Source: an uncultured Desulfuromonadales bacterium (GTDB taxonomy: Bacteria > Desulfobacterota > Desulfuromonadia > Geobacterales > Pseudopelobacteraceae). From it: a stretch of DNA of 64,000 nucleotides. The stretch is taken from the NCBI GenBank assembly GCA_903868145.1, contig CAIPTY010000093.1, forward strand, positions 1 through 64,000. Reading direction: 5' to 3'. Position numbers and translations under genes: made by a program. The notes beneath the pieces were generated by a model, which ran no database searches, was not told where the DNA came from, and worked only from the letters and a program-made list of their open reading frames with translations. This document shows, piece after piece, positions 1,650 through 35,035 of the stretch (positions are counted from its first letter, which is position 1; the number at the start of each line of letters is the position of its first letter).

Positions 1650-4277
1650 ATGAAGAAACAGACAAAATCGGCTCTCAGTTGCAATGAACCTGCCCTTGAA
1701 GTGGAGAAATGTTCCCCGCCACGTAAGGGTTGCGCTCATTTCCCTATTGCGGGCATCGGCGCATCCGCCGGGGGACTGGAAGCGTTGGAATTGTTTCTCC
1801 GTCACGTCCCCGAACAAAGCGGGATTGCCTATATCATAGTTCAGCACCTTGATCCGTCCCACAAGGGAATCATGCCCGAACTGCTCCAGCGCGCCACAAA
1901 AATGGAGGTTTTCCAGGTAAGTGACCGGATGAAGGTTAAGCCGAACTGTGTCTATGTCATCCCCCCCAACAAGGACATGTCGATCCTGCACGATGTACTG
2001 TACCTGTTCGAACCGGCGTCGACCCGCGGTCTGCGTCTTCCGATAGATTTTTTTCTCCGCTCCCTGGCCGAAGACCGGGAGACCGGCAGCATCGGAATCA
2101 TCCTGTCCGGCATGGGTTCGGACGGTACGCTCGGTCTCAGGGCAATCAAGGAGAAGGGGGGCATGGCGCTGGTGCAGGAGCCTGCTTCAGCCAAATTTGA
2201 CAGCATGCCCACAAGCGCCATCAATGCGGGCCTGGCCGACCTGATCGCCCCGGCTGAGAACCTGGCGGTAAAACTGATCGACCTCCTCCAGCATCCTCCT
2301 GTCTTGACCAGAACCGATCCACCCCTGGATGAAAAGGATCAGAGCGCTCTGGAGAAAGTCCTGATTCTGCTGCGATCCAAGACCGGCAATGACTTCTCGT
2401 TGTACAAAAAACACACTATCTACCGCAGGATCGAGCGGCGCATGAGCGTCCACCAGATTACCCGGATCAGTGTCTATGTCCGCTATCTGCAGGAGAACCT
2501 TCAGGAAGTTGAGCTGCTCTTTAAAGAGCTGCTGATCGGCGTCACCAGCTTTTTTCGCGACCCGGAGATATGGAAACAGGTGCAGGATGAAGCCTTTCCG
2601 GCGTTACTGGATGGCTACCCGTCCGGCGGCTGCCTGCGAGCCTGGTCCACCGGCTGCTCAACCGGTGAAGAGGCCTATTCGCTGGCAATTACCTTTAAAG
2701 AGGCTCTGGAACAGCTTAATCCCAAAGGACTTTTCACACTGCAGATTTTTGCCACCGATCTGGACCAGGACGGGATTGACATAGCCCGCCGGGCGGTGTA
2801 TCCGGCCAAAATAGCCGCGGAAATGAGCCCCGAGCGGCTGCAGCGGTATTTTATCAAGGACGGCAGCGACTACCGGGTCTGCAAGGAGATCCGCGAGATG
2901 GTGACCTTCGCCACCCAGAACATCATCATGGATCCACCCTTTACCAGACTGGATATTCTGATCTGCCGCAACCTGCTGATCTATCTGGCACCGGAACTCC
3001 AGAAAAAGATCATGCCGCTCTTCCACTACAGCCTGAACCCGGAGGGCGTCCTGTTTTTGGGGAGTGCGGAGTCTGTCAGCACCTTCACCGATCTCTTTGT
3101 ACCGCTGAACCGCAAATCGAGGCTTTTCCGAAAGCGGGAATCGCTTCTGCCCGCCGAACCGCTATCGTTTCCGGCCACGATTGTCCCACTGCGGCCGGGA
3201 GTTGCCAAGGAGTCACCAATGATGAAACCATCTGTCAATCTCCAGTCGCTCGCAGATCAGCTGCTCCTGCAGCACTTCTCCCCCGCGGCCGTGTTGACCA
3301 ACGACAAGGGCGATATCATTTATATCAACGGGAAAACCGGCAGCTATCTTGAACCGGCTGCCGGGAAGGCCAACTGGAATATTTTCGCCATGGCCCGCGA
3401 GGGGCTCTGTTTTGATCTGGGGAGTGCCTTCCGGAGATCACTCCGGCAAAAAGAGCCCGTCACCGTCAACGGGCTAAAAACCGGAACCGGTGACCGTGAG
3501 CAGGTCGTCGATATAACGGTGCAGATGATTCAGGAACCTGAGGCGCTGCGGGGCATGGTCATAATCGTTTTCAGCGATGTGATCGGGGTGCCGGGTAAAA
3601 AAGTGTCGACGCGATCCAGGACAGCTCCAATCGACAGTTCCGTGGTGCAGGAACTCCAACAGGCTCGCGAGAACCTTCAAACAACCCGGGAAGAGATGCA
3701 AACTTCACAGGAGGAACTCACCTCCACCAATGAAGAGCTGCAATCGACAAATGAAGAGCTGCAGTCCGCCAATGAGGAGCTGACCACCTCCCGGGAAGAG
3801 ATGCAATCCTTAAACGAAGAACTGCAGACAGTGAACGCAGAACAGCAATCCAAAATGGATGAATTTGTCCGGGTAAACGACGACATGCGAAACCTGCTCA
3901 ACAGCACGGAAATTGTCACCGTTTTCCTTGATGATAAACTGCATATCCGGCGTTTCACGACCGGAGCGGATACAATCTTCAAGCTGCTTCCGGGCGATGT
4001 GGGACGGCCACTTTCAGACATTGTGACCGACCTGCACTACCCAGGTATGACCGAAGATGCATGGGAGGTGTTGCGGACGCTGGCCTTTTCGGAAAAACAG
4101 ATCACCGCCGGAAACGGGCGCTGGTATGCAGTGCGCATTATGCCTTACCGCACCGTAGAGAACCTGATCTCGGGATTGGTAATCACCTTTGCAAACATCA
4201 CTGAAACAAAAATAATGGAAACAGGACTGCGTGAGGAAATTGCGCGACTGAAGGGTCTGCTTGAGGACAAAGGGTAA
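1650..4277 (+). CDS. CheB-CheR-PAS fusion protein (chemotaxis methylesterase/methyltransferase type)
   Basis: An 875-residue cytoplasmic signalling protein. Residues ~31-210 are a CheB methylesterase domain with the expected triad: Ser39 in GASAGG, His66 in VQHLDPS and Asp158 in GMGSDG. Residues ~230-480 are CheR with the SAM-binding STGCSTGEEAYS near 333-344. A long Glu/Gln/Ser-rich coiled coil (EELQSTNEELQ-type heptads, ~670-735) leads to a PAS-like domain (~740-850). Many family members continue into a histidine kinase; this one stops after PAS, and a separate kinase gene follows six bases later. No obvious Shine-Dalgarno precedes the ATG. It may sense through PAS and modify a partner rather than act on chemoreceptors, since no MCP is nearby. 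Confidence 0.9.
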   Translation: MKKQTKSALSCNEPALEVEKCSPPRKGCAHFPIAGIGASAGGLEALELFLRHVPEQSGIAYIIVQHLDPSHKGIMPELLQRATKMEVFQVSDRMKVKPNCVYVIPPNKDMSILHDVLYLFEPASTRGLRLPIDFFLRSLAEDRETGSIGIILSGMGSDGTLGLRAIKEKGGMALVQEPASAKFDSMPTSAINAGLADLIAPAENLAVKLIDLLQHPPVLTRTDPPLDEKDQSALEKVLILLRSKTGNDFSLYKKHTIYRRIERRMSVHQITRISVYVRYLQENLQEVELLFKELLIGVTSFFRDPEIWKQVQDEAFPALLDGYPSGGCLRAWSTGCSTGEEAYSLAITFKEALEQLNPKGLFTLQIFATDLDQDGIDIARRAVYPAKIAAEMSPERLQRYFIKDGSDYRVCKEIREMVTFATQNIIMDPPFTRLDILICRNLLIYLAPELQKKIMPLFHYSLNPEGVLFLGSAESVSTFTDLFVPLNRKSRLFRKRESLLPAEPLSFPATIVPLRPGVAKESPMMKPSVNLQSLADQLLLQHFSPAAVLTNDKGDIIYINGKTGSYLEPAAGKANWNIFAMAREGLCFDLGSAFRRSLRQKEPVTVNGLKTGTGDREQVVDITVQMIQEPEALRGMVIIVFSDVIGVPGKKVSTRSRTAPIDSSVVQELQQARENLQTTREEMQTSQEELTSTNEELQSTNEELQSANEELTTSREEMQSLNEELQTVNAEQQSKMDEFVRVNDDMRNLLNSTEIVTVFLDDKLHIRRFTTGADTIFKLLPGDVGRPLSDIVTDLHYPGMTEDAWEVLRTLAFSEKQITAGNGRWYAVRIMPYRTVENLISGLVITFANITETKIMETGLREEIARLKGLLEDKG

Positions 4278-4283: not shown

Positions 4284-6842
4284 ATGAAAAGCAGTTATAA
4301 GGTAATTGCATCACTCACGTTCCTGGTTCTCCTGGTTTCGTTGATGATGACGCTGAGCTTCAGAGCATTCCGGCAAATCGAAATAACTGCCGAAACACGC
4401 AAACAGGTCGAAAGTTTCAACGGACATGAAGCGAAACTGCTTGCGCAACACGAAGCAGTCTTTACATCAGGCATGCGCAGTCTGTTTATTATCATTGTCC
4501 TCTCCAACCTCGTGATGCTGATTTTGACAGCCGCATTTATTTATCTGATTTACCGGGAATCACAGCAGCAGCTCAAAAATGTTATTAATCTGGAAAATGA
4601 GCGTCTGCTGGCGGTTCAGGAGGCCACTAACACTCAGTTGCTGCAGACCAATGAAATCTTTCGGGTAAATGAGGAAACGACGAGAAAGCTGGTCAGCGAA
4701 CTTGAAGTGTTCCAGATCGAAATGGATACCCAGAATACCGAGTTGCGACGATCCCAGGAAGAGCTTCAAACCCAGCAGATAGAGCTTGAACTGCAAAATG
4801 ATGAACTGCAGCAGGCACGTGAGAGTCTTGAGGTCTCGCGTAATAAATATACCGAACTCTATGACTTCGCACCGGTCGGCTATTTCACTTTTGATGAACA
4901 CGGAGTGATCCGGGAGGTAAACCTTGCCGGCGCGCAGATGCTGGGAATCGAGAGAAGTCGGCTTACCGATACACCATTTGCCAGTTTAATTACCGATGAA
5001 GCTGAACAGGGGATTTTTTCCGGACACCTGTCAACAGTGGTGCAGGGCCTCGGTATTCAAAGATGTGAGTTCAAACTTAAGGGAAAAGATCACACCGAAA
5101 TGTATGCTCTGGTCCAGAGCGTCTGTATTGACACTATCGACGACAAGGGCAGATATATCCTCTCCTCCGTTATTGATAGCACCGCCAGCAAAAAATTGGA
5201 GGCGGAAATCCAGGACGCCCGGGAATATTCCGAAAATATTGTAGAAACCCTGCACAAACCACTGATAGTCATGAGTTCAGATCTGAAGATCCTCACTGCC
5301 AACCGCAACTTCTATGAAACTTTCAAGGTTACCCCCGAGGAAACCATCGGAAATTTCATCTACGACCTCGGCAACCGACAATGGGACATACCCAAGCTGC
5401 GGGTTCTTTTTGAGGACATCCTCCCCAATGACAGCGTATTCAACGGTTATGAAGTCGATCATCATTTTCCCGGCATCGGCCGCAAGATTTTTCTGCTGAA
5501 TGCCCGCCAGATCGTCCGGAAGAACATCGGCTCGCACATAATCCTTCTGGCCATGGAAGACCACACCGAGCGCAAGCTTATCGAAGCAGAACGTGTGCGC
5601 CTCGAACGGGTATTACAGGATAAGAACACCGAACTTGTGCACGCCACACTCATAGCGGAAAGGGCCAGCCGGGCTAAATCGGATTTCCTTTCCAGCATGA
5701 GTCATGAACTGCGCACCCCGCTCAGTGCCATCCTCGGCTTTGCCCAGCTCATTGAATCAGGCGAACCTGTACCGACTTCCAACCAAAAACGAAGTATCGA
5801 TCAGATTCTCAAAGCGGGCTGGTATCTGCTGGAGCTGATCAACGAGATACTTGATCTCGCGGTGATCGAATCAGGTAACCTTTTAATGTCGCTGGAAACG
5901 GTTGCCCTGTCTGAAATCATGCACGAATGTGAGGCCATGATTGAACCGCAAGCTGAAAAGCGCGGCATCAAGCTGCACTTTGCCCATATCGAAACTGACT
6001 GCTATGTCAAAGCAGATCGTACGCGGGCCAAGCAGGTTCTCATAAACCTGCTTTCTAACGCAATAAAGTACAACAGGGCTGATGGCCGGGTTACCGTGGA
6101 CGCAGTATTCAGAGGCGCGGATATTATCAGGATCAGTGTGAGAGATACCGGAGAAGGACTGGCTCCGGAACAGGTGGCCAAGCTGTTTCAACCATTCAAC
6201 CGGCTCGGGCAGGAAACCAGCACAGAGCAGGGTACCGGCATCGGCCTGGTAGTCTGCAAACGCCTGGTTGAATGGATGGGGGGAACCATCAATGCGGAAA
6301 GCACGGTCGGGGAAGGGAGTGTCTTCTGGTTTGAACTTAATCTCACAACTGAGCCGCCGTTGGCAAACCATACAGATAAAGCTGTATCAGCCTCACCGGA
6401 GCATCTCGAAGGGGAAGAGCCCTTGTACACCGTACTCTACGTCGAGGACAATCCTGCCAACCTGATGCTGGTCGAAGATATCATTGCGCGGAGACCCGAT
6501 ATCCGCCTGGTGAGTGCTGGAGACAGTAAAAGAGGAATAGAGCTTGCGCGCTCTGCCATGCCGGATGTCATCCTGATGGACATCCACCTGCCGGGTATGA
6601 GCGGTGTCGATGCCATGAAGATTCTGGTGGCAGACGCGGAAACGGGGCATATTCCGGTAATTGCGCTCAGTGCCAATGCGATACCCCGCGATATTGAAAA
6701 GGGTCTGAAAGCCGGATTTTTTCGTTACCTCACAAAACCGGTCAAAGTAATCGAATTTATGGATACAATTGATCTGGCATTGAAATTTGCAAAAATAAAG
6801 AAATCAGGTTATCGCACATCAATCAAAAAGGAACAAACATGA
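4284..6842 (+). CDS. Membrane hybrid histidine kinase, PAS-PAS-HisKA-HATPase-REC
   Basis: 852 residues. Two N-terminal membrane helices (~8-28 and ~66-90) bracket only ~40 residues, so the periplasmic sensor is minimal. A coiled coil with [13 protein letters not shown] heptads follows, then PAS (~190-300), a second PAS (~310-430) with the [14 protein letters not shown] signature, HisKA with phospho-acceptor His474 in SHELRTPL, HATPase_c with GTGIGL, and a C-terminal receiver with Asp766 in MDIHLPG. It starts 6 bp after the CheB-CheR fusion and overlaps the response regulator downstream by 4 bp (ATGA), so the three are cotranscribed. The second PAS is nearly the same as those at 11642 and 18149. 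It probably feeds phosphate to the sigma-54 regulator. Confidence 0.92.
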
Positions 6843-8389
6843 TACTTACGGAGTCTGAATTGCATAATTCCAGCATCCTGATAGTTGACGATCAGGAGCC
6901 CAATGTCATTCTGCTTGAGCAGATGCTTTGTGATGCCGGCTACACCTCCATATCCTCAACGATCAATCCGAAAGAGGTCTGCGCACTGCATCTGAAAAAC
7001 AACTACGATCTGATCCTGCTCGACCTTCAGATGCCGGGCATGGATGGGTTTCAGGTAATGGAACGCCTCAAGGCGGACAATGTGGACAGCTATCTCCCTG
7101 TCCTCGTGATCACCGCCCAACCGGAACTCAAACTGCGCGCACTGCAAGCCGGTGCAAAAGATTTTGTAGCCAAGCCATTTGATCTGGTCGAAGTCAAAAT
7201 GCGAATCCGAAACATGCTGGAAGTGCGACTGCTGTACAAAAAACTTGAAGGCCACAAAACCATCCTGGAAGAGAAAGTACGGGAACGGACAGAAGAACTG
7301 CAGAAGGCAAACATACAGCTTACACTGGAAGTCAGCGAACGCAAAAAGGTAGAAGGGTCACTCCAGAGTACCTATGCAGAAATAAAAGTGTTGAAAGACC
7401 GTCTCCAGGCCGAAAATATCTATCTGCAGCAGGAGGTCGACCAGCACTACAACTTCGGCGAGATTATCGGCCAAAGCACGATACTCTCATGCGTATTTTC
7501 CCAGGTTGAGCAGGTAGCCCCCATGAACGCAACCGTCCTGCTGCTGGGCGAAACCGGCACCGGAAAGGGTGTGGTGGCGCGTGCCATCCACAGCAAAAGC
7601 ACTCGCAAGAATCGACCGCTGATAACCGTCAACTGCACGACACTGCCGGCAACCCTGGTGGAAAGCGAGCTATTCGGCCGGGAACGGGGAGCGTTTACCG
7701 GTTCCGATGCCCGTCAGATCGGACGATTTGAACTGGCAGACGGCGGAACAATCTTCCTGGACGAAATCGGCGAAATGCCCCTGGAACTGCAATGCAAACT
7801 GCTGCGGGTCATCCAGGACGGCGAGTTTGAAAGACTGGGCAGTCCCCGCACTATCAAGACTGATGTTCGAATCATCGCAGCCACCAACCGCAATCTGGCC
7901 GAAGAGGTCAAAAACGGCACGTTCCGGGAAGATCTGTTCTATCGCCTTAATGTGTTTCCGATCACCATGCCGCCGCTCCGGCAGCGGAAGGAAGACATAC
8001 CGCTGCTGGTCAATCACTTTGTCAACAAATTCAACCACAAGATCGGCAAGAAGATAGTGACCGTATCAAAAGACACCCTGAACGTCCTTCAGGAATACTT
8101 CTGGCCCGGCAACGTGCGAGAGCTGGAAAGTGTCGTCGAGCGGGCGGTAATTATCAGCAAAGGGAGTGCGCTACAGGTATTGGACCGTTTTGACACATCA
8201 GTTAAACCTGAGGACGCCTCAGGACTGGAGATCAAAGCGCTCGTCGAACTGGAACACGACCACGTCCTCCAGGTACTCCAGAAAACCGGTTGGCGCATCG
8301 AGGGAAAAAGCGGTGCCGCGATACTGCTTGGTCTTAATCCCAGCACGCTTCGCGCCCGGATGCGTAAATACGGTATCAGCCGTCAATAA
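6839..8389 (+). CDS. Sigma-54 enhancer-binding response regulator (REC-AAA+-Fis HTH)
   Basis: 516 residues of NtrC type. The receiver spans ~12-130 with Asp62 in LLDLQMPG; a coiled coil (~140-205) leads to the AAA+ domain with Walker A GETGTGKG (~236-243), the sigma-54 contact loop GAFTGS (284-289) and Walker B LDEIGEMP. The C-terminus is a Fis-type helix-turn-helix ([16 protein letters not shown]). The loop is usually GAFTGA; here the last residue is Ser. It overlaps the kinase by 4 bp. It is the only sigma-54 activator in the window, which has up to ten sigma-54-like promoters, and so the best candidate for binding the shared upstream elements. That link is inferred. Confidence 0.93.
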
Positions 8390-8419: not shown

Positions 8420-8450
8420 TGTAGAATATGACAGTAATGTCAAATTAGAC
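8420..8450 (+). promoter_or_regulatory. Enhancer element, 130 bp upstream of sigma-54 promoter
   Basis: Contains ATATGACAGTAATGTCAAAT and matches the window consensus (left arm TGTCATATATGACA, right arm ATGTTAAATATGAC) at about 25 of 31 positions. It starts 130 bp before the -24 GG element at 8550, the same distance as the copies at 25363 and 34857. It is the presumed binding site of a sigma-54 activator. Confidence 0.65.
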
Positions 8451-8549
8451 GGATAATCTTGACGGCCTCCTCACCCACCCCATCCTTCACCTTCGTTATT
8501 ATCAAGCAAATCAAGCATGTTGCAGCTTCCATTCCCCCTTCACCCCTTC

Positions 8550-8564
8550 TGGCATATTAGTTGC
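8550..8564 (+). promoter_or_regulatory. Sigma-54 promoter for the SARP-like/stress operon
   Basis: TGGCATATTAGTTGC fits the -24/-12 consensus with correct spacing. It shares the TTAG spacer bases with the promoters at 34988 (ATAG), 39862 (TTAG) and 25493 (CTAG). It lies 79 bp before the chosen start at 8644. Confidence 0.75.
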
Positions 8565-8643
8565 GCTCTCTCCGTCAGGCTGAGCATTGGTAATACTGCG
8601 TTATCTGCTTAACCCTACGCGCAATCAGTTTACGGGGAGTCCC

Positions 8644-9258
8644 ATGAAAACACCTGACGCCGCACTGGATATCCGGACACTGGGAGATTTTCAAATCACG
8701 GTCAATGGAAAGCAGGTTGCCAAAGAGTGGCCAAACGAAACACTTAAAGTGCTTTTCTGTTCGCTGCTATCGCCGCTGGATCTTTCATTCAGCTGGGACA
8801 GGATCTGTCGGGCTCTGTGGGGTATGCCAGCGACCCGAACCAGCCGACGCAGACTGGATGAGAATCATATCAAACCGCTGAACAGTTTTCTGGTCAATGA
8901 ACTGGGTTTCAGCCCACTCATTTCCGACCGGGAAGGTATCAGAATCGACCAGCAGTGTCTCAATCTGGATGCGATCGACTTTCACAATGCCGTCGTAGAT
9001 GGTCTCAAACAGTTTTCGCTCGGCAACAAGCTTACTGCTCTCGAAAATATACATAAGGCTCGATTGCTCTATGCCGGTTCATTTCTGCCGGGTGTACCGG
9101 GTAAAATAGTGGCAAGCACCCGCAACGAGCTTGAATCCATGTACCGTACTGTCGTGTCACACGCCGTTCCGATCACGCAGAGATTCAGCACATCAGCACA
9201 TTCGGAGGCCAGCACATCAACCTGGACGGGTTCGTCACAACCGCCAACATCGGTTTAA
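8644..9258 (+). CDS. AfsR/SARP-like winged-helix regulator, short
   Basis: 204 residues from the ATG at 8644, chosen over upstream in-frame starts because ACGGGGAGTCCC provides a ribosome site. The N-terminus (TLGDFQITVNGKQV, WDRICRALWG, SRRRLDENHIKPLN) matches the OmpR/SARP-type winged helix, and ~105-180 resembles the start of a BTAD tetratricopeptide domain (EGIRIDQQCLNLDAIDFHNAV, ENIHKARLLYAGSFLPG). The last 30 residues are low-complexity Ser/Thr, so the BTAD part looks shortened. It has no receiver. It is first in a run of small stress genes behind a sigma-54 promoter and probably regulates transcription, though the target is unknown. Confidence 0.75.
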   Translation: MKTPDAALDIRTLGDFQITVNGKQVAKEWPNETLKVLFCSLLSPLDLSFSWDRICRALWGMPATRTSRRRLDENHIKPLNSFLVNELGFSPLISDREGIRIDQQCLNLDAIDFHNAVVDGLKQFSLGNKLTALENIHKARLLYAGSFLPGVPGKIVASTRNELESMYRTVVSHAVPITQRFSTSAHSEASTSTWTGSSQPPTSV

Positions 9259-9292: not shown

Positions 9293-9496
9293 ATGCAGAG
9301 ACACCTGGGTGAAGTCGAAGGAACATTTTTTAAACTGAAGAGCTCATTCAACGAGATCTTCAGGAATGCGAGTGACATGTCAGCCATGAATGCCGCAGGT
9401 ACCACAGAAGAGAACTACGGAACGTATCAGGAAAGAACAGGCCAGTCGGAACCGCACGATTGCCGAACAAATCCCACAGGAGGAAAGACCAGATGA
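9293..9496 (+). CDS. Small unknown protein (67 aa)
   Basis: I do not recognise this gene. The ATG at 9293 has a strong site (CGGGGAGGCACC) and the product begins MQRHLGEVEGTFFKLK, with no signal peptide or membrane segment and a polar, Thr/Gly/Glu-rich tail. Its stop overlaps the start of the next gene by ATGA (9493-9496), indicating translational coupling. It lies between the SARP-like regulator and the Lys/Ala-rich secreted protein. Confidence 0.6.
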   Translation: MQRHLGEVEGTFFKLKSSFNEIFRNASDMSAMNAAGTTEENYGTYQERTGQSEPHDCRTNPTGGKTR

Positions 9497-9828
9497 AAAA
9501 GATTGTATCCGCAGTAATCGCAACCCTCGTTGCAATGTCCTTTGCCACAGTAGTTTTCGCCGCAGAAGCTGCAAAGCCAATTGTAATCGCTGAACAGCCT
9601 GCCCCTGCTGCTGGCGCAGCAGAAGCCAAAAAAGACGTAAAAACAGCGAAGGCGGAAGAAAAAGCCGCAGAGGCAAAGGCTAAAGCAGAGGCCAAAAAAG
9701 CAAAAGCCAAAGCAAAGGCTGAGGCAAAGGAAGCAAAGGCGAAAACAAAAGCAGATGCAAAAGCAGCAAAAGAAAAAGCCAAGGCAGATGCCAAGGCAGT
9801 GAAAGAGGCCGTTCCTGCAGCCAAATAG
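9493..9828 (+). CDS. Secreted Lys/Ala/Glu-rich coiled-coil protein
   Basis: 111 residues from ATG 9493, preceded by CACAGGAGGAAAG. A clear signal peptide (MKKIVSAVIATLVAMSF, cleavage near VFAA) is followed by a Pro/Ala segment and then about 70 residues made almost only of Lys, Ala and Glu in AKAKAEAK-like heptads. This predicts a long, highly charged periplasmic helix. The composition recalls histone-H1-like or LEA-like proteins, but low-complexity sequence does not allow a family call. Being next to CsbD and BON genes suggests an envelope stress role. Confidence 0.75.
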   Translation: MKKIVSAVIATLVAMSFATVVFAAEAAKPIVIAEQPAPAAGAAEAKKDVKTAKAEEKAAEAKAKAEAKKAKAKAKAEAKEAKAKTKADAKAAKEKAKADAKAVKEAVPAAK

Positions 9829-9892
9829 ATTTTTTTTGGCACCGCAAAGAACATTTGGAACCTAACCGTTACCTGCATAAAAGGAGATTATC

Positions 9893-10072
9893 ATGAAATC
9901 AAGTATTAGAGACAAGGCAGAAGGAGCAGCACACGAAATCAAGGGTGCCCTCAAACAGGCCGCAGGAAAACTGTGCGATAATACAAAACTTCAGGTTGAA
10001 GGCGCTTGTGAAAAGGCCGCCGGCAAAGCCCAGGAAAAGGTCGGTGAGTTTAAGAAGGTATTGGGCAAGTAA
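9893..10072 (+). CDS. CsbD family small stress protein
   Basis: 59 residues beginning MKSSIRDKAEGAAHEIKG and containing KQAAGKL and EKAAGKAQEKVGEFKK, the hydrophilic repeated pattern of the CsbD family (general-stress proteins of unknown mechanism). A strong AAAGGAG site precedes the ATG at 9893. It has a Cys in each half, at C28 and C39, which is not typical of the short family members I know. It is followed by a terminator-like hairpin at 10087-10135. Confidence 0.85.
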   Translation: MKSSIRDKAEGAAHEIKGALKQAAGKLCDNTKLQVEGACEKAAGKAQEKVGEFKKVLGK

Positions 10073-10086
10073 CAGTAAGCTATGAC

Positions 10087-10135
10087 GGCGTGACATGCCT
10101 TGCGGAGTACAGACGGCTGTCACGCCTCATTTTTT
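10087..10135 (+). terminator. Rho-independent terminator after csbD-like gene
   Basis: GGCGTGACA (10087-10095) pairs with TGTCACGCC (10118-10126), followed by TCATTTTTTG. The loop is about 22 nt. It separates the CsbD-like gene from the Spy-like gene, so the latter may need its own promoter or readthrough. Confidence 0.75.
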
Positions 10136-10167
10136 GAACATACCCACTAAAATAAAAAGGACACACT

Positions 10168-10701
10168 ATGAAAGCACGATATTCAGTTTCGACACTCTTG
10201 CCAGCACTTGCTCTGGCAGTACTCAGCATACCGCTTCCCGCTTTTTCCGAGACAATGGACATGTCCATAAAAGAGCACCGCGAATCACATGGTCATATGA
10301 TGGGGGCAGGTCATCTGGACAAGATGGGCGACATGATGGGCATGTGTTCTGAACATGCAGGCATGATGGGGCTGAGCGATGAGCAGGTATCAAAAATGAA
10401 GCCGGCAGAGCGCGAGATCCAGAAGAAACAGGCCCGTTACAAGGCCGATGTCAAGATTGCTGAAATAGAACTGATTGAAATCATGGAAGTTAATGATTTT
10501 AATCTTGAGAAAGCCACTGTCGCCGTCAAGAAAATAGCCGACATTAAAACCGCGCATCATCTTGAAATGCTCAAAGCAATGAAAGAAATGCGTACCTTGA
10601 TTACAGATGAACAGTTCACAAAAATGAAAAAGATGATGACCATGAAGCCGGGCGACAATAAGCATCATGAAAAGATGATCAATAAAACACCAAAACAGTA
10701 A
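10168..10701 (+). CDS. Spy/CpxP-like periplasmic protein
   Basis: 177 residues with signal peptide (MKARYSVSTLLPALALAVLSIPLPAFSE). The mature part is very rich in Met and His (GHMMGAGHLDKMGDMMGMC, KMKKMMTMKPG) and predicted helical, with a long Lys/Glu helix (~75-150). This fits the Spy/CpxP/heavy-metal-sensor family of periplasmic chaperones; the Met/His clusters suggest metal (Cu/Ag) binding. The spacing MKPAEREIQKKQARYKADVKIAEIELIE is typical of the helical core. It sits 13 bp before the BON gene, and AAAAAGGAC precedes its ATG. Confidence 0.7.
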   Translation: MKARYSVSTLLPALALAVLSIPLPAFSETMDMSIKEHRESHGHMMGAGHLDKMGDMMGMCSEHAGMMGLSDEQVSKMKPAEREIQKKQARYKADVKIAEIELIEIMEVNDFNLEKATVAVKKIADIKTAHHLEMLKAMKEMRTLITDEQFTKMKKMMTMKPGDNKHHEKMINKTPKQ

Positions 10702-10714
10702 AAGGAGAAGCTAG

Positions 10715-11482
10715 ATGAAAGCACTCTATTCAATATCTATAATTGCTTCAGCTCTTGCTTTACTGGCTTTCAGCGTGCCGGTATATGCAGAGAAGCATGA
10801 CGCAAAAATGGACAGCCGCATCGAAGAGTCTGCAAAACAGTCCTACGTGTTCAAAACCTATCTTAAAGACGATGATATCAAAATCAAGTCAAAGCACGGT
10901 GAAGTCACATTGACCGGCTCTGTAAACGAGAACTTCCACAAATCACTGGCTCAGGAGACCGTGGCAGATCTCCCCGGCGTCAAGAGCGTCGACAACAAGC
11001 TTGAAACAATAAAAGTACAGCCCAGCGTCAATTCAGATGAGTGGCTTCGTGACAAGGTCAGGGTAACGCTGACATTTCATCGCAGCGTACGTGCCACATC
11101 AACAGAGGTAACTGTCAAAGACGGTGTTGTAACCCTTCGCGGTGAAGCTGCCAGTCAGGCACAAAAAGAGCTGACGACAGAATACGCCAAGGACCTGGAA
11201 GGGGTTAAAGACGTCAACAATGAGATGACCGTGGTTGAACCGACTAAGAAAACCCAAACAGTTGGCGAAAAAATTGATGATTCATCCATTACCGCACAGG
11301 TCAAGATGACGCTCCTTACTCACCGTTCAACCAGCGCACTCTACACCACGGTCAAGACAAAACATGGAGTTGTTACTCTTGAAGGCAAGGCCAAAAGTCA
11401 ATATGAAAAAATCCTGGCCACCAAACTTTCCAACGATGTTCATGGAGTAAAGAGTGTCAACAACCAGATGTCCGTTGAGTAG
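10715..11482 (+). CDS. Periplasmic triple-BON domain protein (OsmY-like)
   Basis: 255 residues with an N-terminal signal peptide ending near VPVYAE. Three BON domains are visible (~40-103, ~108-172, ~186-255), each with the D..I/V..V...L core and a GVVTLxGxA-type strand followed by a GVKSVxNxM/L end. OsmY-type proteins protect the periplasm and outer membrane during osmotic and other stress. It is last in its run; a strong terminator follows at 11544. The two-BON OsmY has one domain fewer. Confidence 0.88.
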   Translation: MKALYSISIIASALALLAFSVPVYAEKHDAKMDSRIEESAKQSYVFKTYLKDDDIKIKSKHGEVTLTGSVNENFHKSLAQETVADLPGVKSVDNKLETIKVQPSVNSDEWLRDKVRVTLTFHRSVRATSTEVTVKDGVVTLRGEAASQAQKELTTEYAKDLEGVKDVNNEMTVVEPTKKTQTVGEKIDDSSITAQVKMTLLTHRSTSALYTTVKTKHGVVTLEGKAKSQYEKILATKLSNDVHGVKSVNNQMSVE

Positions 11483-11543
11483 TCAAAGATACCATCCAGT
11501 TTCCGACAGCAGCTGGTTCGTATCAAACCAAGCCAGATACGCG

Positions 11544-11573
11544 AAAAAGGGTGCATCGCGGTGCACCCTTTTT
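11544..11573 (+). terminator. Rho-independent terminator after BON gene
   Basis: AAAAAGGGTGCA (11544-11555) and TGCACCCTTTTT (11562-11573) form a perfect 12-bp stem with a short loop and a T run. Confidence 0.9.
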
Positions 11574-11641
11574 CAACGAAGCAGTCTGAACAGATTTTCA
11601 GGGATATCTGACCATAACATCAGCACTAAAGAGAGTTGGCA

Positions 11642-13414
11642 ATGGTAGACAACCATCACAGAGGCATGTCAGCAGAAGCTGAATTACGACTGCTTGCAGA
11701 GGAAAGACTGAGATCTGGAACTGCTGAAACCAGTCCCTCACCTGCGGACGGCGACACTCTGCGACTGTATCATGAACTACAGGTGCACCAGGTCGAACTG
11801 GAGTTGCAGAATGCCGAGCTCCGCCAGTCCAAAGATGATCTGGAGAGCGCCCTGGAAAAGTACACTGATCTCTACGACTTTGCTCCGGTCGGCTTCTTTA
11901 CCCTGGACTGCAATGCAATTATCAAATCCGTCAACCTCGTTGGTGCCAGCCTGATCGGAGGCGTGCGTACCAAACTGATCGGCCAGCGGTTCGGTCTGCT
12001 GGTTGCTTCTTCCGATCGTCCAACCTTCATCGAATTCCTCAGCAAGGTACTGGCATGCAAGATAAAGGAAGCCTGCGAAGTAGAACTGCTTAACAAAAAA
12101 AAACAGCCCATCATCGTCCAGATCGAAGCAACGGCAAGTGCTTCCGGTCATGAGTTTCGCCTCGCCCTTATCAACATTACCGGGCGCAAACAGCTGGAAA
12201 CTGAAGTCCAGGATGCCCGGGAATATGCGGAGAACATTGTGGAAACCGTGCGGGAACCGCTCGTAGTTCTTAATGCCAACCTGAAGATTCTGACCGCCAA
12301 CCTCAGTTTTTACGAAACATTCAAGGTGACACCTGAGGAAACGATCGGCAATTTCATCTACGATCTCGGAAACCGGCAGTGGGACATACCCAAGCTACGG
12401 GTGCTGTTAGAGGAGATTCTGCACTACCAATCCGTGTTCAATGGCTATGAAGTCGAGCATGATTTTATCGAAATAGGTCGCAAGGTCATTCTGCTCAATG
12501 CCCGGCAGATTTTCCGTAAGAACATAGGTTCACACATCATCCTTCTGGCCATGGAGGACATCACCGAACGCAAGCAGTTGACTGAGGAACTACAGAAGGC
12601 ACACGACAAGCTTGAGCACATCCTGGATGAGCGGACAAAAGAGCTGACCAGCGCAAATGTCCAGCAACAGGAAACCTCCGCGAGTAATCGTCGGCTGGAA
12701 GAAGTATCACAGATTAAATCTGATTTCCTGGCCAACATGAGCCACGAGCTGCGTACACCGCTCAACTCGGTAATCGGCTTTTCCGAGGTGCTGAAGGACC
12801 AGATGTTCGGACCGATCAACGATAAACAGCAGGAGTATATAACCAACATCCTCACCAGCGGGAAATATCTGCTCTCGCTGATCAACGATATCCTCGACCT
12901 CTCCAAGGTGGAGTCCGGCAAAATGGAGCTTGAGCTGAGTGCCTTTTCACTCCGGGAAACAATAGAAACTTCTCTGATGATGCTCAAGGAAAAGGCTCAC
13001 CAAGGCGGGATAGAACTTAAAATGGAACTTGGCGAAGAGGTGGATGAGCGCATTGTTGCAGACCAGAGGAAACTGAAACAGATCCTTTTCAACCTGGTAT
13101 CCAATGCAGTCAAATTTACCCCGCCGGGTGGCACTGTCGATGTACGTGCCGTTAAAAGTAACGAATTTATCGAAGTAACCGTTGCTGACAGCGGCATCGG
13201 CATCCGGGCGGAAGACATCCCGAAGATCTTCCAGGCCTTCACCCAATTGGAACCGGCTTTCACAAAAAAATACGAAGGCACCGGCCTGGGACTGGCACTG
13301 ACAAGTCAGTTGGTGCAGTTGCACGGCGGTACGATCAAGGTCGAAAGCGAATTCGGATCAGGAAGCACATTCAGCTTCACCATACCGCTGAGGAATACTA
13401 CGGGAATAACCTGA
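11642..13414 (+). CDS. Sensor histidine kinase, coiled coil-PAS-PAS-HisKA-HATPase
   Basis: 590 residues from ATG 11642 (AAAGAGAG 6 nt upstream); an in-frame TTG six bases earlier has no spacing for a ribosome site. There is no membrane segment. An N-terminal helix (LYHELQVHQVELELQNAEL) leads to PAS (~75-185), PAS (~195-310, [14 protein letters not shown]), a coiled coil, HisKA with His368 in [16 protein letters not shown] and HATPase_c with GTGLGLAL. It has no receiver, so it must phosphorylate another protein, for example the lone receiver at 17772. The second PAS is almost that of the 4284 and 18149 kinases; the kinase core is almost that of 13438 and 15987. Confidence 0.92.
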   Translation: MVDNHHRGMSAEAELRLLAEERLRSGTAETSPSPADGDTLRLYHELQVHQVELELQNAELRQSKDDLESALEKYTDLYDFAPVGFFTLDCNAIIKSVNLVGASLIGGVRTKLIGQRFGLLVASSDRPTFIEFLSKVLACKIKEACEVELLNKKKQPIIVQIEATASASGHEFRLALINITGRKQLETEVQDAREYAENIVETVREPLVVLNANLKILTANLSFYETFKVTPEETIGNFIYDLGNRQWDIPKLRVLLEEILHYQSVFNGYEVEHDFIEIGRKVILLNARQIFRKNIGSHIILLAMEDITERKQLTEELQKAHDKLEHILDERTKELTSANVQQQETSASNRRLEEVSQIKSDFLANMSHELRTPLNSVIGFSEVLKDQMFGPINDKQQEYITNILTSGKYLLSLINDILDLSKVESGKMELELSAFSLRETIETSLMMLKEKAHQGGIELKMELGEEVDERIVADQRKLKQILFNLVSNAVKFTPPGGTVDVRAVKSNEFIEVTVADSGIGIRAEDIPKIFQAFTQLEPAFTKKYEGTGLGLALTSQLVQLHGGTIKVESEFGSGSTFSFTIPLRNTTGIT

Positions 13415-13437
13415 TTACTTCCTGAAAGGTTTGTGAA

Positions 13438-15900
13438 ATGAAAAAACTCAGCGTCGAATCAATAATAGTCATCAGTTTTATTTCAGCCATGGTTCTGCTG
13501 CTGCTGGCCGGCGGACAGATGTATCGCTCGATCATGGAATACAGAAACAGCTCACGTCTGGTTGCTCACACCCACCTGGTGCTTGAGGCAATCGAAGAGG
13601 TGAGATATGTCGTAAATTCGCTCATAAGCAGTCAGCGCACCTATATCATAACCGGCAAGGAACAGTACCTCGCCGAGAACAAACGTGAAGAACTCGGCGC
13701 CAGATCAGTGATTCTCCGGATTAAAAACCTGACCGCCGACAACACCACCCAACAGGCGCGTGTCACCGTATTGTCGCAACTGCTGGAGGATCGCCTGAAA
13801 CTGATGAACAGCAACATCGCACTGTATCGTGCCCAGGGTTTCGAAGCAGCACGTGATCGTATCTATAACGGTGTCGCTGACATCACCATGGAGGGGCTTG
13901 AGAAAGAGTGCGATATGATGAGGGCAGAAGAACTGACTCTGCTGAAGCAACGCAGCGATAAGGCCGAACACAAGAGCAGCCAGGCTCTGATGGTGGGTGC
14001 TCTTCTGGTGCTGGTTACCCTGATAGCTCTACCGCTGATGTGGTGGCGGGTGAGACGCACGGCCCAGGAGCGCCTGGCCAGTGATTCGCTGGCAGAAGAA
14101 AGTCTGCTTATGAAGCAGGTTACAGATAATCTCATGCATGAGGACAAGATCAACAAGGCCTATGGAGATATTCTCACTCTTATCAACCAGGACTGGTTCA
14201 ATGTTGGAGACATGACAAGAGCGGCTCTGATTCAGTTTAACGAGCATGTATCCATTATGGCAGGTATCAGTTATCTCGTGCAGAAGGAAAGTATCACTCC
14301 TATTTCCTGCATGGGAATCACGATCCCCGTGACAAGTGGAGATATAGTCAAGGAGGCCGTAATACGAAACGAAATCGTCACGCTGCACGATATTCCAGCC
14401 AATTCAATGCTGAGTATTGCAACCGGTCTTGGAAGTGTTGTTCCTTCTGAAATCATTGCCGTGCCTCTTTCAGTAAAAAATGAAATTGTGGCCGTTGTGG
14501 AACTTGCCTCACTGCACGGTTTTAAAGAAAATGATCTGCAGATCATCAACCGGATTGCCCCCCAGCTTGGATTCGGCATAAAGCAGCGGATGCTTGAACA
14601 GGATATCAAGGATCGCTCTTCTCAGCTTGAAACGGCCAATTTTGAGCTTGTAACCATGAATGAGCAGTCCAGATGCCTGAACGAATCCCTCGAGTGTTCA
14701 AATGAACAACTCCAGACTACGCAGACTGAAATTAACGAAAGTAACCGGAAGCTTGAGAGTATTTCACGAAGCAAGTCCGATTTCCTGGCAAACATGAGTC
14801 ACGAACTGCGCACTCCGCTCAATTCGGTCATCGGTTTTTCCGAGGTGCTGCAGGATCAGATATTCGGCCCCATCAATGAGAAGCAGCAGGAATATGTGGT
14901 CAACATCATTTCCAGCGGCAGGCATCTGCTTTCCCTGATCAACGATATTCTCGACCTGTCCAAGGTGGAGTCAGGAAAGATGAACCTTGAACTCACCGAG
15001 TTTTCACTGCGGAAAACCCTGGAGGATTCGCTGATGATGCTGAAGGAAAGGGCTCAGAAAAGCGGCATCAGTCTTATTCTTGATCTTGAGCCGCAGGCCG
15101 ATGTCCAGATTTCGGCAGATCAGAGAAAGCTGAAGCAGATCCTGTTCAACCTGCTCACCAACGCAGTCAAATTCACCCCTGAAAACGGATCCGTGAATGT
15201 GAGTGCGGTTCAGGAAGCTGATTTTATGGAGGTAACCGTTGCAGACAACGGAGTGGGCATAATGGCGGAAGACATTCCGAAACTTTTTCAGGCATTCACT
15301 CAACTGGAATCGGTCTATACAAAAAAGCATGACGGAACAGGCCTGGGACTGGCCTTGACCAGGCAACTGGTAGAACTTCACGGCGGCAGAATTTGGGTTA
15401 AAAGCGAGTTCGGTACGGGAAGCAGGTTCATCTTTACTCTCCCGTTACTACGGGGAGCGACCATAATCCCTGTCATCCCGGCAACTCAAATCAGTAACAG
15501 AGACAAAAGCATCCTGCTGATCGATGATGACCCACTGACACTGACCGCCCAGCTGAATGCACTTAAGATCAGTGGGTACACAACACTGGTGGCGCATGAC
15601 GGGGAAGAGGGTCTCAAACTGGCGCGCAACTGTTCACCTGATCTCATAATCCTCGACCTGTTGATGCCTGGCATGTCCGGCTTCGATGTCATTAAACGCT
15701 TGTGGGCGGATAAGGCTGTCGCACGAATACCGATCCTGGTGTTGACTGCAATGGATCTTTCGGATGCCGACCGGGCAAGACTTGCTGGCAGGGTCTGGCG
15801 GATAGCGGAAAAAGGAAGTCTTTCTTCGCAGGAATTGAATCAGCTGGTTGAAAAAGCCGTTGAGCACCTTAATAATAACGTTTTCGAAAATAGACCATGA
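13438..15900 (+). CDS. Membrane hybrid kinase, CHASE3-like-GAF-HisKA-HATPase-REC
   Basis: 820 residues. TM1 (~8-28) and TM2 (~181-200) flank a periplasmic helical region with NSLISSQRTYIITGKEQYL, typical of CHASE3. A GAF-like domain (~235-385) and coiled coil lead to HisKA with His455 in [16 protein letters not shown], HATPase_c (GTGLGLAL) and a C-terminal receiver with LILDLLMPGMSG. The receiver end carries RLAGRVWRIAEKGSLS, seen in hybrid kinases with degenerate C-termini. It starts 23 bp after the preceding kinase. Its core matches those of the flanking kinases, so this part of the cluster arose by duplication with sensor swapping. Confidence 0.92.
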   Translation: MKKLSVESIIVISFISAMVLLLLAGGQMYRSIMEYRNSSRLVAHTHLVLEAIEEVRYVVNSLISSQRTYIITGKEQYLAENKREELGARSVILRIKNLTADNTTQQARVTVLSQLLEDRLKLMNSNIALYRAQGFEAARDRIYNGVADITMEGLEKECDMMRAEELTLLKQRSDKAEHKSSQALMVGALLVLVTLIALPLMWWRVRRTAQERLASDSLAEESLLMKQVTDNLMHEDKINKAYGDILTLINQDWFNVGDMTRAALIQFNEHVSIMAGISYLVQKESITPISCMGITIPVTSGDIVKEAVIRNEIVTLHDIPANSMLSIATGLGSVVPSEIIAVPLSVKNEIVAVVELASLHGFKENDLQIINRIAPQLGFGIKQRMLEQDIKDRSSQLETANFELVTMNEQSRCLNESLECSNEQLQTTQTEINESNRKLESISRSKSDFLANMSHELRTPLNSVIGFSEVLQDQIFGPINEKQQEYVVNIISSGRHLLSLINDILDLSKVESGKMNLELTEFSLRKTLEDSLMMLKERAQKSGISLILDLEPQADVQISADQRKLKQILFNLLTNAVKFTPENGSVNVSAVQEADFMEVTVADNGVGIMAEDIPKLFQAFTQLESVYTKKHDGTGLGLALTRQLVELHGGRIWVKSEFGTGSRFIFTLPLLRGATIIPVIPATQISNRDKSILLIDDDPLTLTAQLNALKISGYTTLVAHDGEEGLKLARNCSPDLIILDLLMPGMSGFDVIKRLWADKAVARIPILVLTAMDLSDADRARLAGRVWRIAEKGSLSSQELNQLVEKAVEHLNNNVFENRP

Positions 15901-15986
15901 AATCACCATGTGAACGACCTGACTGAGGCGCACCTGGTATGACGGACAAGCAGCGAGTGACTGCCTGATTTGATGTTGGAGGTACC

Positions 15987-17744
15987 ATGAGAATCGACAA
16001 AGATAAACATATCAAAGCGTCAGGTCGAGCTTCACAGCATCATCCCGCAGATGAGCGACTGAAAGCAGCGTCAGTTGAAACACCTGCTTCCTCAACGGGC
16101 ACGCATGAAGAGATAACCATGAGCAAGCCCTCGGAAGAGGCACTTCTTAAAACCGGGGCTCTGCAGAATGCTATTTTCAACAGCGCCAATTTTTCAAGTA
16201 TCGCCACCGATGCCAAGGGGGTCATACAGATTTTCAATGTGGGTGCGGAAAGGATGCTCGGCTACACGGCGGCGGAAGTCATGAACAAGATCACGCCGGC
16301 TGATATTTCCGATCCCCAGGAAGTTATCATCCGTGCCAAAGCATTGAGTGCCGAGCTCGAAACCACGATTACTCCAGGCTTCGAGGCGCTGGTGTTCAAG
16401 GCATCACGCGGCATAGAGGATATCTACGAACTGACCTACATTCGCAAGGATGGCAGCCGCTTTCCGGCAGTCGTATCAGTTACGGCCCTGCGTGACGCAC
16501 AGGACACCATCATCGGGTATCTGCTGATCGGTACCGACAATACGGCGCGAAAACAGATCGAGGCAGAGCAGATGCAACTCAGTCAACGTCTGAGGGATCA
16601 TCAATTTTACACCCGTTCCCTGTTCGAATCCAACATAGACGCCATTATGACTACTGATCCGACCTGCATCATCACCGATGTAAACAAGCAGATGGAAGTC
16701 TTGACCGGCTGCACACGTGATGAGCTGATCGGTGCGCCATTCAAAAATTACTTCACCGATCCCGACCGTGCCGAGACAAGCATCAAACGGGTACTGATAG
16801 AAAAGAAGGTCACCAACTACGAACTCACCGCACGCGCCAGGGACGGCAAGGAAACGGTGGTTTCTTTCAACGCGACCACGTTCTATGACCGGGACAGGAA
16901 GCTGCAGGGCGTGTTTGCGGCCGCTCGCGACGTTACGGAGCGCAAGCGCCTCGATCAGGCTCTACAGGAAAAGAACATCGAACTGGAGAGCGCCAGATCA
17001 GTTGCTGAAAAGACCAATCTGGCAAAATCCGACTTTCTGGCCAATATGAGCCACGAGCTGCGAACCCCGCTCAACTCGATAATCGGCTTTTCCGAAGTAC
17101 TGCAGGACCAGATGTTCGGCCAACTTAATGACAAGCAGCGCGAATATCTTAACCATATTCTTACCAGCGGCAGACACCTGCTTTCCCTTATAAACGACAT
17201 CCTCGACCTATCGAAGGTTGAGTCGGGCAAGATGAAACTTGAACTGAGCACTTTTCTCCTTCGGGAAACGGTGGAGGCCTCGTTAATGATGCTCAGGGAA
17301 AAGGCGCAGAAAGGCGGGATCGATCTCGTCATGGATCTTGCCGGACAGGCAGACGTTCATATTGAAGCAGATCAGAGGAAGCTGAAGCAAATTCTGTTTA
17401 ATCTGCTCTCAAATGCGGTCAAGTTTACTCTGACCGGCGGAACAGTCAAAGTGAGTGCTGTGAAAGCCCAGAATTACATCGAAATAGCCGTGGAGGACAG
17501 CGGCATCGGGATCAAGGAGGAAGATATCCATAAACTCTTCCATCCGTTTACACAGCTGGAATCTGTCTATACCAAGGAATACGAGGGCACCGGCCTCGGA
17601 CTGGCACTGAACAGGCAACTGGTGGAGCTTCATGGCGGCCGGGTCTGGGTAAGCAGTGAGTTTGGCAAGGGGAGCAGGTTCAGCTTCACCATTCCGATAT
17701 CACAGGCAAATGCCAATGTTATCCCGCCAGACGACTCACTCTAG
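15987..17744 (+). CDS. Cytoplasmic PAS-PAS sensor histidine kinase
   Basis: 585 residues, starting after TTGGAGGTACC. A charged, poorly conserved N-terminus (~1-50) precedes PAS 1 (~58-185, [17 protein letters not shown]), PAS 2 (~200-315, [13 protein letters not shown]), HisKA with His356 in [16 protein letters not shown], and HATPase_c with GTGLGLAL. It has no membrane segment and no receiver. It ends 27 bp before the stand-alone receiver at 17772, its likely partner. Confidence 0.9.
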
Positions 17745-17771
17745 GAGATGCGATCACAGGAGGCTATGACG

Positions 17772-18152
17772 ATGCCATACAAGATTCTGATAGTTGAAGA
17801 TAACGATAACAATCGTACCCTTTTTCGCGACATTTTGATGTTTCAAGGCTATGAGGTGCTGGTCGCTTCTGACGGCCAGGAGGGGGTGACTGTCGCCAGC
17901 CAACACATGCCTGACCTGATCCTGATGGATATACAGATGCCAGGCATGGACGGCATGACCGCTGCCCGGTATCTCAAGGCTGCGCCCGAAACCAGCGAAC
18001 TGAAGATCATTGCGCTGACCTCATTTGCCATGCAGGGCGACAGGGAAAAGTTCATTGCGGCCGGATTTGACGGTTATATTTCCAAACCGGTCAATACCCG
18101 TGAGTTGCCTCTTCTGGTAAAGCAGTGGCTGGCTGAGAAGGCGCAGCCATGA
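17772..18152 (+). CDS. Single-domain response regulator (CheY/DivK-like)
   Basis: 126 residues of receiver only: acidic pocket VEDNDNN, phospho-acceptor in LILMDIQMPGMDG, Thr/Ser switch in ALTSFAM and Lys in YISKPVN. ACAGGAGG lies 8 nt before ATG 17772, preferred over the closer ATG at 17766. With no output domain it likely carries phosphate between the kinases of this cluster or acts by protein contact. Its end overlaps the next gene by ATGA. Confidence 0.9.
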   Translation: MPYKILIVEDNDNNRTLFRDILMFQGYEVLVASDGQEGVTVASQHMPDLILMDIQMPGMDGMTAARYLKAAPETSELKIIALTSFAMQGDREKFIAAGFDGYISKPVNTRELPLLVKQWLAEKAQP

Positions 18153-19600
18153 GTAAGTGCATGCCGAAAATTCTTTGCGTTGATGACGAGCCTCTGAATC
18201 TAACTCTTCTGGAAGTCATCTTGCTCCCCAGGGGATATGATGTGGTGATGGCGGAGAATGGCCTTGAGGCATTGGAGAAGTTAAAAACAGAGAGGATTGA
18301 CCTCTGTATTCTGGACGTTTCCATGCCTGGGATCGATGGTTTTGAAGTCTGCCGCCGTATAAAGGCCGATAAAGAACATCGCGTTATCCCGGTCGTAATG
18401 GTCACCGCGCATACCGACAGTGAAAACCGTATCCGGGGGATCGAGGCCGGAGCCGATGATTATATTTCCAAGCCGTTTAATACTGCGGAGGTGCTTGCCA
18501 GGCTCAAGATGCTTTTGCATGTCAAGTCACTTCAGGACAGCCTCAGGGACGCAGGGGAATATGCCGAGAATATTGTAGAAACCGTTCGCCAGCCTCTTCT
18601 CGTGCTTGATTCCGATTTAAAGATCCTTTCCGCAAACCTCTGTTTTTACGAAACCTTTAAAGTAGCCCCTGAAGAAACGATCGGAAATTTCATCTATGAT
18701 CTTGGTAACCGGCAATGGGATATCGCCACGCTGCGTACCCTCCTTGAGGAAATTCTTCCCCACGAAACCCTGTTCAACGGATATGAAGTTGCGCACGATT
18801 TCAAGGGGATTGGCCGCAAGGTTTTTATGCTCAATGCACGGCAGATTTACCGTAAAAAAATCGGCTCAGAGATTATCCTTCTGGCTATGGAAGACATAAC
18901 TGATCGCAAGCAGGCAGAAATGCTACGCGAGGATATTGAGCGCATAACCTCTCATGATCTTAAAACCCCGCTCAATCCGATCATAGGCCTTCCTGAGATT
19001 ATGCTCATGGATTCAAACCTGACCCCGGAACAAATCGAATGTCTTCAACTCATAAAAACCAGCGGACACCGAATGCTCACTATCATCGACTCATCCCTGT
19101 CTCTCTATAAAATAGAACAGGGAACTTATGAAATTTCGCCGGTCTTATTTAATCTGCTCCCCTTGGTAGCAGATATTGCCAAAGAGTCTGCCCTGGAGCT
19201 TGCCAGGAAACGCATAAAGCTGCTGCTAAGTTCTCATGGCTGCTCTGTTGAAGCAGGCGACGTTTTCATTGTGAATGCTGAATTGATGCTGTGCTACACC
19301 ATGCTGGCAAATTTAATAAAAAATGCTCTGGAAGCATCACCGCCGGACGCAGTGATTACGGTCTCGTTCGAGCAGGATGAACTGTGGAGTTTTATCGGGA
19401 TTCATAATATGGGGGCGATACCTGAAGAGATCCGTTCCAGATTTTTCGATAAATATGTCACCAGTGGGAAAAAAATGGGGACAGGCCTGGGCACCTATTC
19501 TGCTCTGCTGGCCGCCCGGACCCATCATGGTGATATTTCAATGCAAACCTCAGAAGACACGGGAACCTTGATTACAATACGTTTGCCGAAAACTTTTTGA
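18149..19600 (+). CDS. REC-PAS-histidine kinase (receiver at N-terminus)
   Basis: 483 residues. The N-terminal receiver has Asp56 in CILDVSMPGIDG; a PAS domain (~130-250) carries the [14 protein letters not shown] signature; the dimerisation helix has His269 in SHDLKTPLNPIIGLPE, a variant of the usual SHELRTPL; HATPase_c ends with GTGLGTYSA. The inverted order puts the kinase under control of a phosphorylated receiver, a common phosphorelay design. It overlaps the single receiver by 4 bp. Confidence 0.9.
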   Translation: MSKCMPKILCVDDEPLNLTLLEVILLPRGYDVVMAENGLEALEKLKTERIDLCILDVSMPGIDGFEVCRRIKADKEHRVIPVVMVTAHTDSENRIRGIEAGADDYISKPFNTAEVLARLKMLLHVKSLQDSLRDAGEYAENIVETVRQPLLVLDSDLKILSANLCFYETFKVAPEETIGNFIYDLGNRQWDIATLRTLLEEILPHETLFNGYEVAHDFKGIGRKVFMLNARQIYRKKIGSEIILLAMEDITDRKQAEMLREDIERITSHDLKTPLNPIIGLPEIMLMDSNLTPEQIECLQLIKTSGHRMLTIIDSSLSLYKIEQGTYEISPVLFNLLPLVADIAKESALELARKRIKLLLSSHGCSVEAGDVFIVNAELMLCYTMLANLIKNALEASPPDAVITVSFEQDELWSFIGIHNMGAIPEEIRSRFFDKYVTSGKKMGTGLGTYSALLAARTHHGDISMQTSEDTGTLITIRLPKTF

Positions 19601-19720
19601 CCTGACAATCGAGGGGAAGGCATGAGCCTGCATAAGACGATGTTGAGGCTCTTACAGTAACTGCTGATCACAGGATAAAATCACAATGCGAAAAATACTG
19701 CTGAAAAGAAAAATACTGTC

Positions 19721-35002: not shown

Positions 35003-35035
35003 CCCTGCCTGTTGAAAATATAAAAAGGAGAAACT

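Follow-up and report, generated by a model that had tools for sequence, protein, structure and literature searches.

The stretch of DNA analysed here (the window, 64,000 nucleotides from an uncultured Desulfuromonadales bacterium) carries on its forward strand a run of small genes that opens with a SARP-like regulator. A first-pass annotation had described six genes at this locus, encoding the SARP-like regulator, a 67-residue protein, a Lys/Ala protein, CsbD, a Spy-like protein and a BON protein, and all six were recovered in place, together with two hairpins:

8644–9258, + strand: SARP-like regulator, a winged helix followed by a truncated BTAD (AlphaFold model, Foldseek)
9293–9496, + strand: 67-residue CsbD-like mini-protein of the 'KLKSSFNEIFG' family (profile–profile match to CsbD; relatives)
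9493–9828, + strand: secreted Lys/Ala-rich helical protein with a signal peptide, also found behind an activator site (UAS, see below) in loci L050 and L133
9893–10072, + strand: CsbD, 59 residues (Pfam PF05532, 56.3 bits, cut-off 40)
10087–10135, + strand: hairpin with a T-run behind csbD, a terminator or attenuator (z -3.1, 1 of 200 shuffles as stable)
10168–10701, + strand: Spy/CpxP-like periplasmic protein, rich in Met and His (profile match to CpxP 3itf)
10715–11482, + strand: triple-BON, OsmY-like protein (Pfam BON, three stretches, 156.8 bits)
11543–11574, + strand: intrinsic terminator behind the BON gene (z -4.4)

Relatives of the SARP-like protein occur in 28 of 97 related genomes (its own genome counted), with close copies in 17 genomes at 49–59% identity to the window protein (its own copy aside) and distant copies in 11 at 22–32%. 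The AlphaFold model (pLDDT 81) has the OmpR-type winged helix of SARPs at its N terminus, with AfsR (8hvr, E 4e-7) as the best Foldseek match and EmbR also matched; a search of solved structures with the SARP alignment returned chance matches only. A full SARP was excluded by the BTAD test, the Pfam BTAD match reaching 12.9 bits against a cut-off of 22.1 over 61 of 146 positions, and conservation among the close relatives ends near residue 175–177 with an unconserved tail beyond. Like AfsR and EmbR the protein has a winged-helix fold and the start of a BTAD, but unlike them it has only about 175 conserved residues with the BTAD truncated, is found in Geobacterales and itself lies under sigma-54.

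The 67-residue protein, previously listed as an unknown, is a CsbD-like mini-protein by profile–profile comparison (95.4%, E 1.9e-8), the likeness being strongest in the N-terminal half. The protein itself gave no Pfam match and stayed below the CsbD cut-off; a spurious reading frame is excluded by its relatives, which share the KLKSSFNEIFG signature and occur in L041, L050, L126, L164 and L167. The end of its gene overlaps the start of the Lys/Ala gene (ATGA). The Spy-like family gave a weak profile match to CpxP (3itf, E 0.0014) and Pfam LTXXQ was matched in five of six members (E up to 0.5, best 4.8e-5), with the window copy matching Metal_resist alone at 0.079, below the cut-off. Its model is poor (pLDDT 66), with CpxP as the best Foldseek match, itself weak (E 0.11), and CnrX among the weak fold matches. 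The BON protein has an N-terminal signal peptide as judged by eye and scored 96.9 bits against the OsmY model, below the cut-off of 174.

Upstream of the run lie three genes likely to be involved in signalling, with the 254 bases between the last of these and the SARP-like gene holding the control region:

1650–4277, + strand: CheB-CheR-PAS-type protein, a likely upstream signalling partner (NCBIfam CheB and CheR matches)
4284–6842, + strand: hybrid histidine kinase, the likely sensor for the adjoining response regulator (kinase family matches)
6839–8389, + strand: NtrC-family response regulator, the proposed activator (Pfam Response_reg, Sigma54_activat, HTH_8)
8425–8460, + strand: putative activator site (UAS), palindromic, with the core TGACAGTAATGTCA at 8429–8442 (profile score 38.6)
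8509–8522, + strand: IHF-like site AATCAAGCATGTTG, an imperfect copy of the IHF consensus with one extra spacer base
8549–8565, + strand: sigma-54 promoter CTGGCATATTAGTTGCG, with the -24 GG and -12 GC elements at fixed spacing (conserved)

The product of 6839–8389 has the receiver, sigma-54 AAA+ and Fis-type HTH domains of the NtrC family (Pfam) and is about 69–81% identical over the full or nearly full length to its counterparts in relatives, where in most close loci the gene lies directly 5′ of the SARP UAS. In relatives the C-terminal part of the hybrid kinase is also retained beside the regulator gene at about 65–72% identity, with a full-length relative of the CheB-CheR-PAS protein close to the regulator gene in several of them. 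No UAS was found before position 1650 (best profile score -5).

The UAS is a 36-base element with the consensus TATATGGCAGTTATGTTAAACATGACGGATTCCATT, built from the 18 close SARP loci with upstream sequence read (window included), the same loci being used for the UAS and promoter counts. In the window it lies about 124 bp upstream of the sigma-54 promoter. In 17 of these 18 loci a sigma-54 site lies 81–122 bases 5′ of the SARP start codon with the UAS 113–124 bases before it, mostly 122–124, and L045 has neither element. All 11 distant SARP-like loci read upstream lack the UAS, whereas L168, from the record IMCC39146, carries it. An independent test came from the scan of another collection, in which an alignment-based search gave 30 SARP loci and a single-protein search none; with 17 duplicates and two loci with too little upstream sequence set aside, 11 loci unused for the motif were left and every one carries a UAS and a sigma-54 site, 112–113 or 122–124 bp apart. 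A chance sigma-54 match is excluded by this conservation, and the constant distance and phase of the UAS relative to the sigma-54 site are those of an enhancer. An IHF-like site with at most one mismatch lies between UAS and promoter at 58 of 103 sites, against 4.0 expected in shuffles, with 53 of the 58 beginning 37–39 bases before the -24 box. Both the IHF consensus and the distance of 100–140 bp agree with the part of PMC7962754 drawn on here.

The same arrangement recurs beyond the SARP-like gene, five further promoters in the window having a UAS and contigs C97 and C5, from the window's own genome, carrying additional ones:

25336–25371, - strand: UAS of the leftward sigma-54 promoter 25231–25247 (profile match with promoter)
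25368–25403, + strand: UAS of the rightward sigma-54 promoter 25492–25508, which precedes a 171-residue gene, an AI-2E-like gene and PLD genes
34862–34897, + strand: UAS of the sigma-54 promoter 34987–35003 (profile match with promoter), before what we take to be spore-coat-U/usher pilus-like genes
39749–39784, + strand: UAS of the sigma-54 promoter 39861–39877 (profile match with promoter), before genes presumably for a hydrolase and GlgB/trehalose-type proteins
53378–53413, + strand: weaker UAS of the sigma-54 promoter 53498–53514 (profile match with promoter), before an assumed TonB receptor-like gene

A further UAS match at 50573 was rejected as a regulon site, being without a sigma-54 site on its strand. 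Among the fetched loci 115 UAS matches scored above 14, of which 105 have a sigma-54 site 80–150 bp downstream, with 98 at 119–125 bp, six at 112–114 and one at 88; many of the non-SARP loci had been picked by a search that allowed only a set range of spacings, so that in these figures only the loci found through SARP are free of spacing bias. The 119–125 and 112–114 bp classes are one helix turn apart.

Across the 97 genomes the UAS core pattern gave 212 matches compared to 10 for the reversed control. At least two UASs were found in 30 of the 42 genomes with an ortholog of the regulator's DNA-binding region versus 3 of the 55 without, with a P of 3e-12 that overstates independence as the genomes are related, the direction being unaffected. 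Six genomes hold the activator with no UAS match at three mismatches, three without it hold 2–5 UAS matches, and among genomes with the activator its copy number does not clearly track the number of UASs (Spearman 0.26, P 0.10). Binding of the regulator to the UAS and activation of the promoter are predicted from this co-occurrence.

The gene most often found behind the UAS is csbD. A UAS is found no more than 1 kb upstream of 21 of 47 csbD genes (above the Pfam cut-off, in genomes with full UAS site lists; 0.08 expected) and no more than 4 kb upstream of 30 (0.34 expected); no such UAS precedes any of the 10 csbD genes of the f2 and f3 genomes. Within the same family, 28 of 30 genomes that have the activator also carry csbD, versus 6 of 30 that lack it. 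Counting looked-for families in the 103 UAS operons, 90 of which have at least 1.5 kb of sequence, gave CsbD in 21, SARP in 20, BON and PAS-kinase in 12 each, OmpA-like lipoprotein in 11, STAS in 8, and Spy and PLD in 7 each. The order csbD then spy is found behind a UAS in L139, L140 and L100, Lys/Ala and BON genes are joined in L133, csbD and BON in L134, and the mini-CsbD lies beside Lys/Ala in L050. As csbD, spy, BON and Lys/Ala genes stand behind their own UAS in relatives, the window cluster appears to gather members of the regulon behind the SARP promoter. Directly 3′ of the run, positions 11642–22571 hold a dense series of PAS histidine kinases and response regulators, and PAS kinases of that kind are those that recur in 12 of the 103 operons.

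On the sites, their spacing, their co-occurrence and the gene content, all read directly from the sequence, the cluster is taken to be one operon of a sigma-54-dependent general or envelope stress regulon under two-component control with a SARP-like relay, a reading to which we give a probability of about three in four. The hybrid kinase (4284–6842) would phosphorylate the NtrC-type response regulator (6839–8389), which would then bind the UAS at 8425–8460 and, with IHF bending the DNA between UAS and promoter, open the sigma-54 promoter at 8549. From there the SARP-like protein, the CsbD-like mini-protein, CsbD and the secreted Lys/Ala protein would be expressed, and transcription continuing beyond the hairpin, here a presumed partial terminator, would add the Spy-like periplasmic chaperone and the OsmY-like BON protein. 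The SARP-like winged-helix protein may serve as a second-tier regulator acting on ordinary promoters. Other operons of the genome would be switched on by the same UAS and sigma-54 promoter, presumably under stress.

The first-pass annotation was confirmed in what it observed and partly supported in how it interpreted this. The sigma-54 promoter it had placed before the SARP-like gene is the one conserved in 17 of 18 close loci, its proposal of a stress-protein set under shared control is supported by the recurrence of UAS and promoter before such genes, and the envelope character it had suggested is borne out by the Spy/CpxP-like and OsmY-like BON proteins. Separate sigma-70 promoters for the downstream genes would have spoken against shared control, and a simple scan of the + strand of the run found a single sigma-70-like match, at 10715–10743 inside the BON gene, with the intergenic gaps empty. 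The system is larger than had been seen, since the activator gene, the UAS, the IHF-like site and the further operons had all been missed.

The strong hairpin with its T-run at 10087–10135, lying between csbD and spy, means that the run may not be a single even operon but two units joined by read-through. That the sigma-54 unit stops there altogether, with spy and BON expressed separately, is nevertheless rather unlikely, as the csbD–spy gap has no sigma-70-like site and in L139, L140 and L100 a UAS precedes csbD and spy in that order; in the first two the gap holds a strong hairpin without a T-run and in L100 none. Neither csbD nor spy has a UAS of its own in the window (no profile match above 6), the gaps of 64 and 95 bases before them being too short for one. 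Two to four proteins with the activator's DNA-binding region are found in several genomes, which would allow a paralogous NtrC-type activator to read the UAS instead of the product of 6839–8389. This we hold to be the least probable of the alternatives, given that only one protein of the window's genome matches that region at E <= 1e-35 and that the regulator gene adjoins the SARP UAS in most close loci. In G042:C141 and G030:C33 the same DNA-binding region lies in open frames of about 850 residues and hence behind other or longer front ends, and several inputs may share one UAS through activators of this kind.

As to what the regulon does, a role in general or envelope stress is favored, since elsewhere CsbD and OsmY-like proteins belong to the general stress response and the periplasm is protected by Spy/CpxP proteins. 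The exact role of CsbD is called unknown in the part of PMC10294668 drawn on here. The main competing view, prompted by the pilus-like genes, the STAS proteins and, at two loci, the c-di-GMP-type riboswitches in the regulon, is that it serves surface attachment or biofilm formation and that CsbD, Spy and BON proteins support the envelope of cells living in this way. UAS operons with usher/spore-coat-U pilus-like genes, STAS, PLD and OmpA-like lipoproteins are in keeping with this, as are three riboswitches of the c-di-GMP-I and c-di-GMP-I-GGC types in SARP-containing loci (L046:6564–6640, L046:9974–10052 and L041:8941–9017), two of which separate a UAS promoter from the gene of a secreted protein. 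Against it, no target is as common as csbD (21 of 103), which in other bacteria belongs to the general stress genes, and two further Rfam searches over 40 loci gave no riboswitch. Even with sigma-54 tied to the cell exterior in the part of PMC3162934 drawn on here, we regard attachment as the main function as doubtful. A metal- or desiccation-specific set, as the first-pass annotation had it, is improbable: the Met/His-rich composition of the Spy-like protein, its weak Metal_resist match and CnrX among its weak fold matches would suit it, but the target genes listed showed no conspicuous metal sensor or efflux gene, the families counted included none, and the best sequence match of the Spy-like protein is CpxP, a general envelope-stress protein.

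The known general stress regulons are built on RpoS, SigB or EcfG. The stress regulon proposed here resembles those of RpoS and SigB (YjbJ/CsbD, OsmY) in its payload of CsbD and OsmY-like BON proteins but in place of an alternative sigma-70-type factor it would use sigma-54 together with an enhancer-binding response regulator. Replacement of RpoS by the regulon is not supported, an RpoS-like sigma factor being present in the genome (its match lies below the RpoS cut-off). In the ZraSR–ZraP system of Enterobacteriaceae an NtrC-type two-component regulator and sigma-54 drive a periplasmic chaperone of the Spy/CpxP family under envelope stress, and the view that such a set is not usual for sigma-54 has to be qualified by this case of ZraR/sigma-54 control of ZraP. 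The likeness, a response regulator, sigma-54 and a Spy-family chaperone, is one of working only; here the regulon comprises many operons, with csbD, BON, SARP-like and mini-CsbD genes foremost, and has another UAS and another kinase type. Searches of the literature on CsbD, BON, OsmY, sigma-54 and Desulfuromonadales, mostly at listing level, found no description of the UAS or of csbD under sigma-54, nor any work joining CsbD with the BON domain and sigma-54 or with an upstream activating sequence, or Desulfuromonadales with OsmY and stress. The principle is already known from ZraSR–ZraP and, as far as searched, what is new is the UAS and the sigma-54 wiring of csbD-type stress genes. ZraSR is named in the part of PMC12316311 drawn on here.

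In the related Geobacter sulfurreducens many sigma-54 promoters make up the RpoN regulon (PMC2725144); by word search its main text has no CsbD, BON or SARP, and the stress genes in the part drawn on here are without RpoN elements. Genus g11, with three genomes in our set, has no UAS match and no activator, which may explain why the regulon was missed in model Geobacter, if g11 is indeed, as it possibly is, that genus. Placing the csbD/osmY/spy set under an enhancer-dependent promoter would keep it off until the phosphorylated activator arrives and wire it to specific sensors. The analysis yields an exact UAS, predicts the regulon for dozens of genomes in a group that matters environmentally, and places an unknown small protein in a family. 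More tentatively, and with slightly less than even confidence, part of the Geobacterales may run a general stress response via sigma-54, in which kinase-fed NtrC-type activators (several, with differing front ends, in some genomes) converge on one UAS to drive csbD, BON, Spy, mini-CsbD and envelope genes; a truncated SARP would relay the signal to ordinary promoters, and a sigma-54-driven small RNA would possibly take part.

The candidate for such an RNA is a stretch of about 70 nt at 25155–25230 (- strand), which has no clear gene and lies behind the leftward UAS and sigma-54 promoter. It contains an unpaired CCUCC-type segment, and the strong terminator at its end (z -4.4) was equalled in stability by none of 200 shuffles. 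Among the fetched loci it was found in the window itself and an overlapping locus only. At L044:3075–3161 (- strand) a short leader with a strong terminator 60–80 bases behind a UAS promoter precedes a lipoprotein gene and csbD, and is possibly an attenuator or a small RNA.
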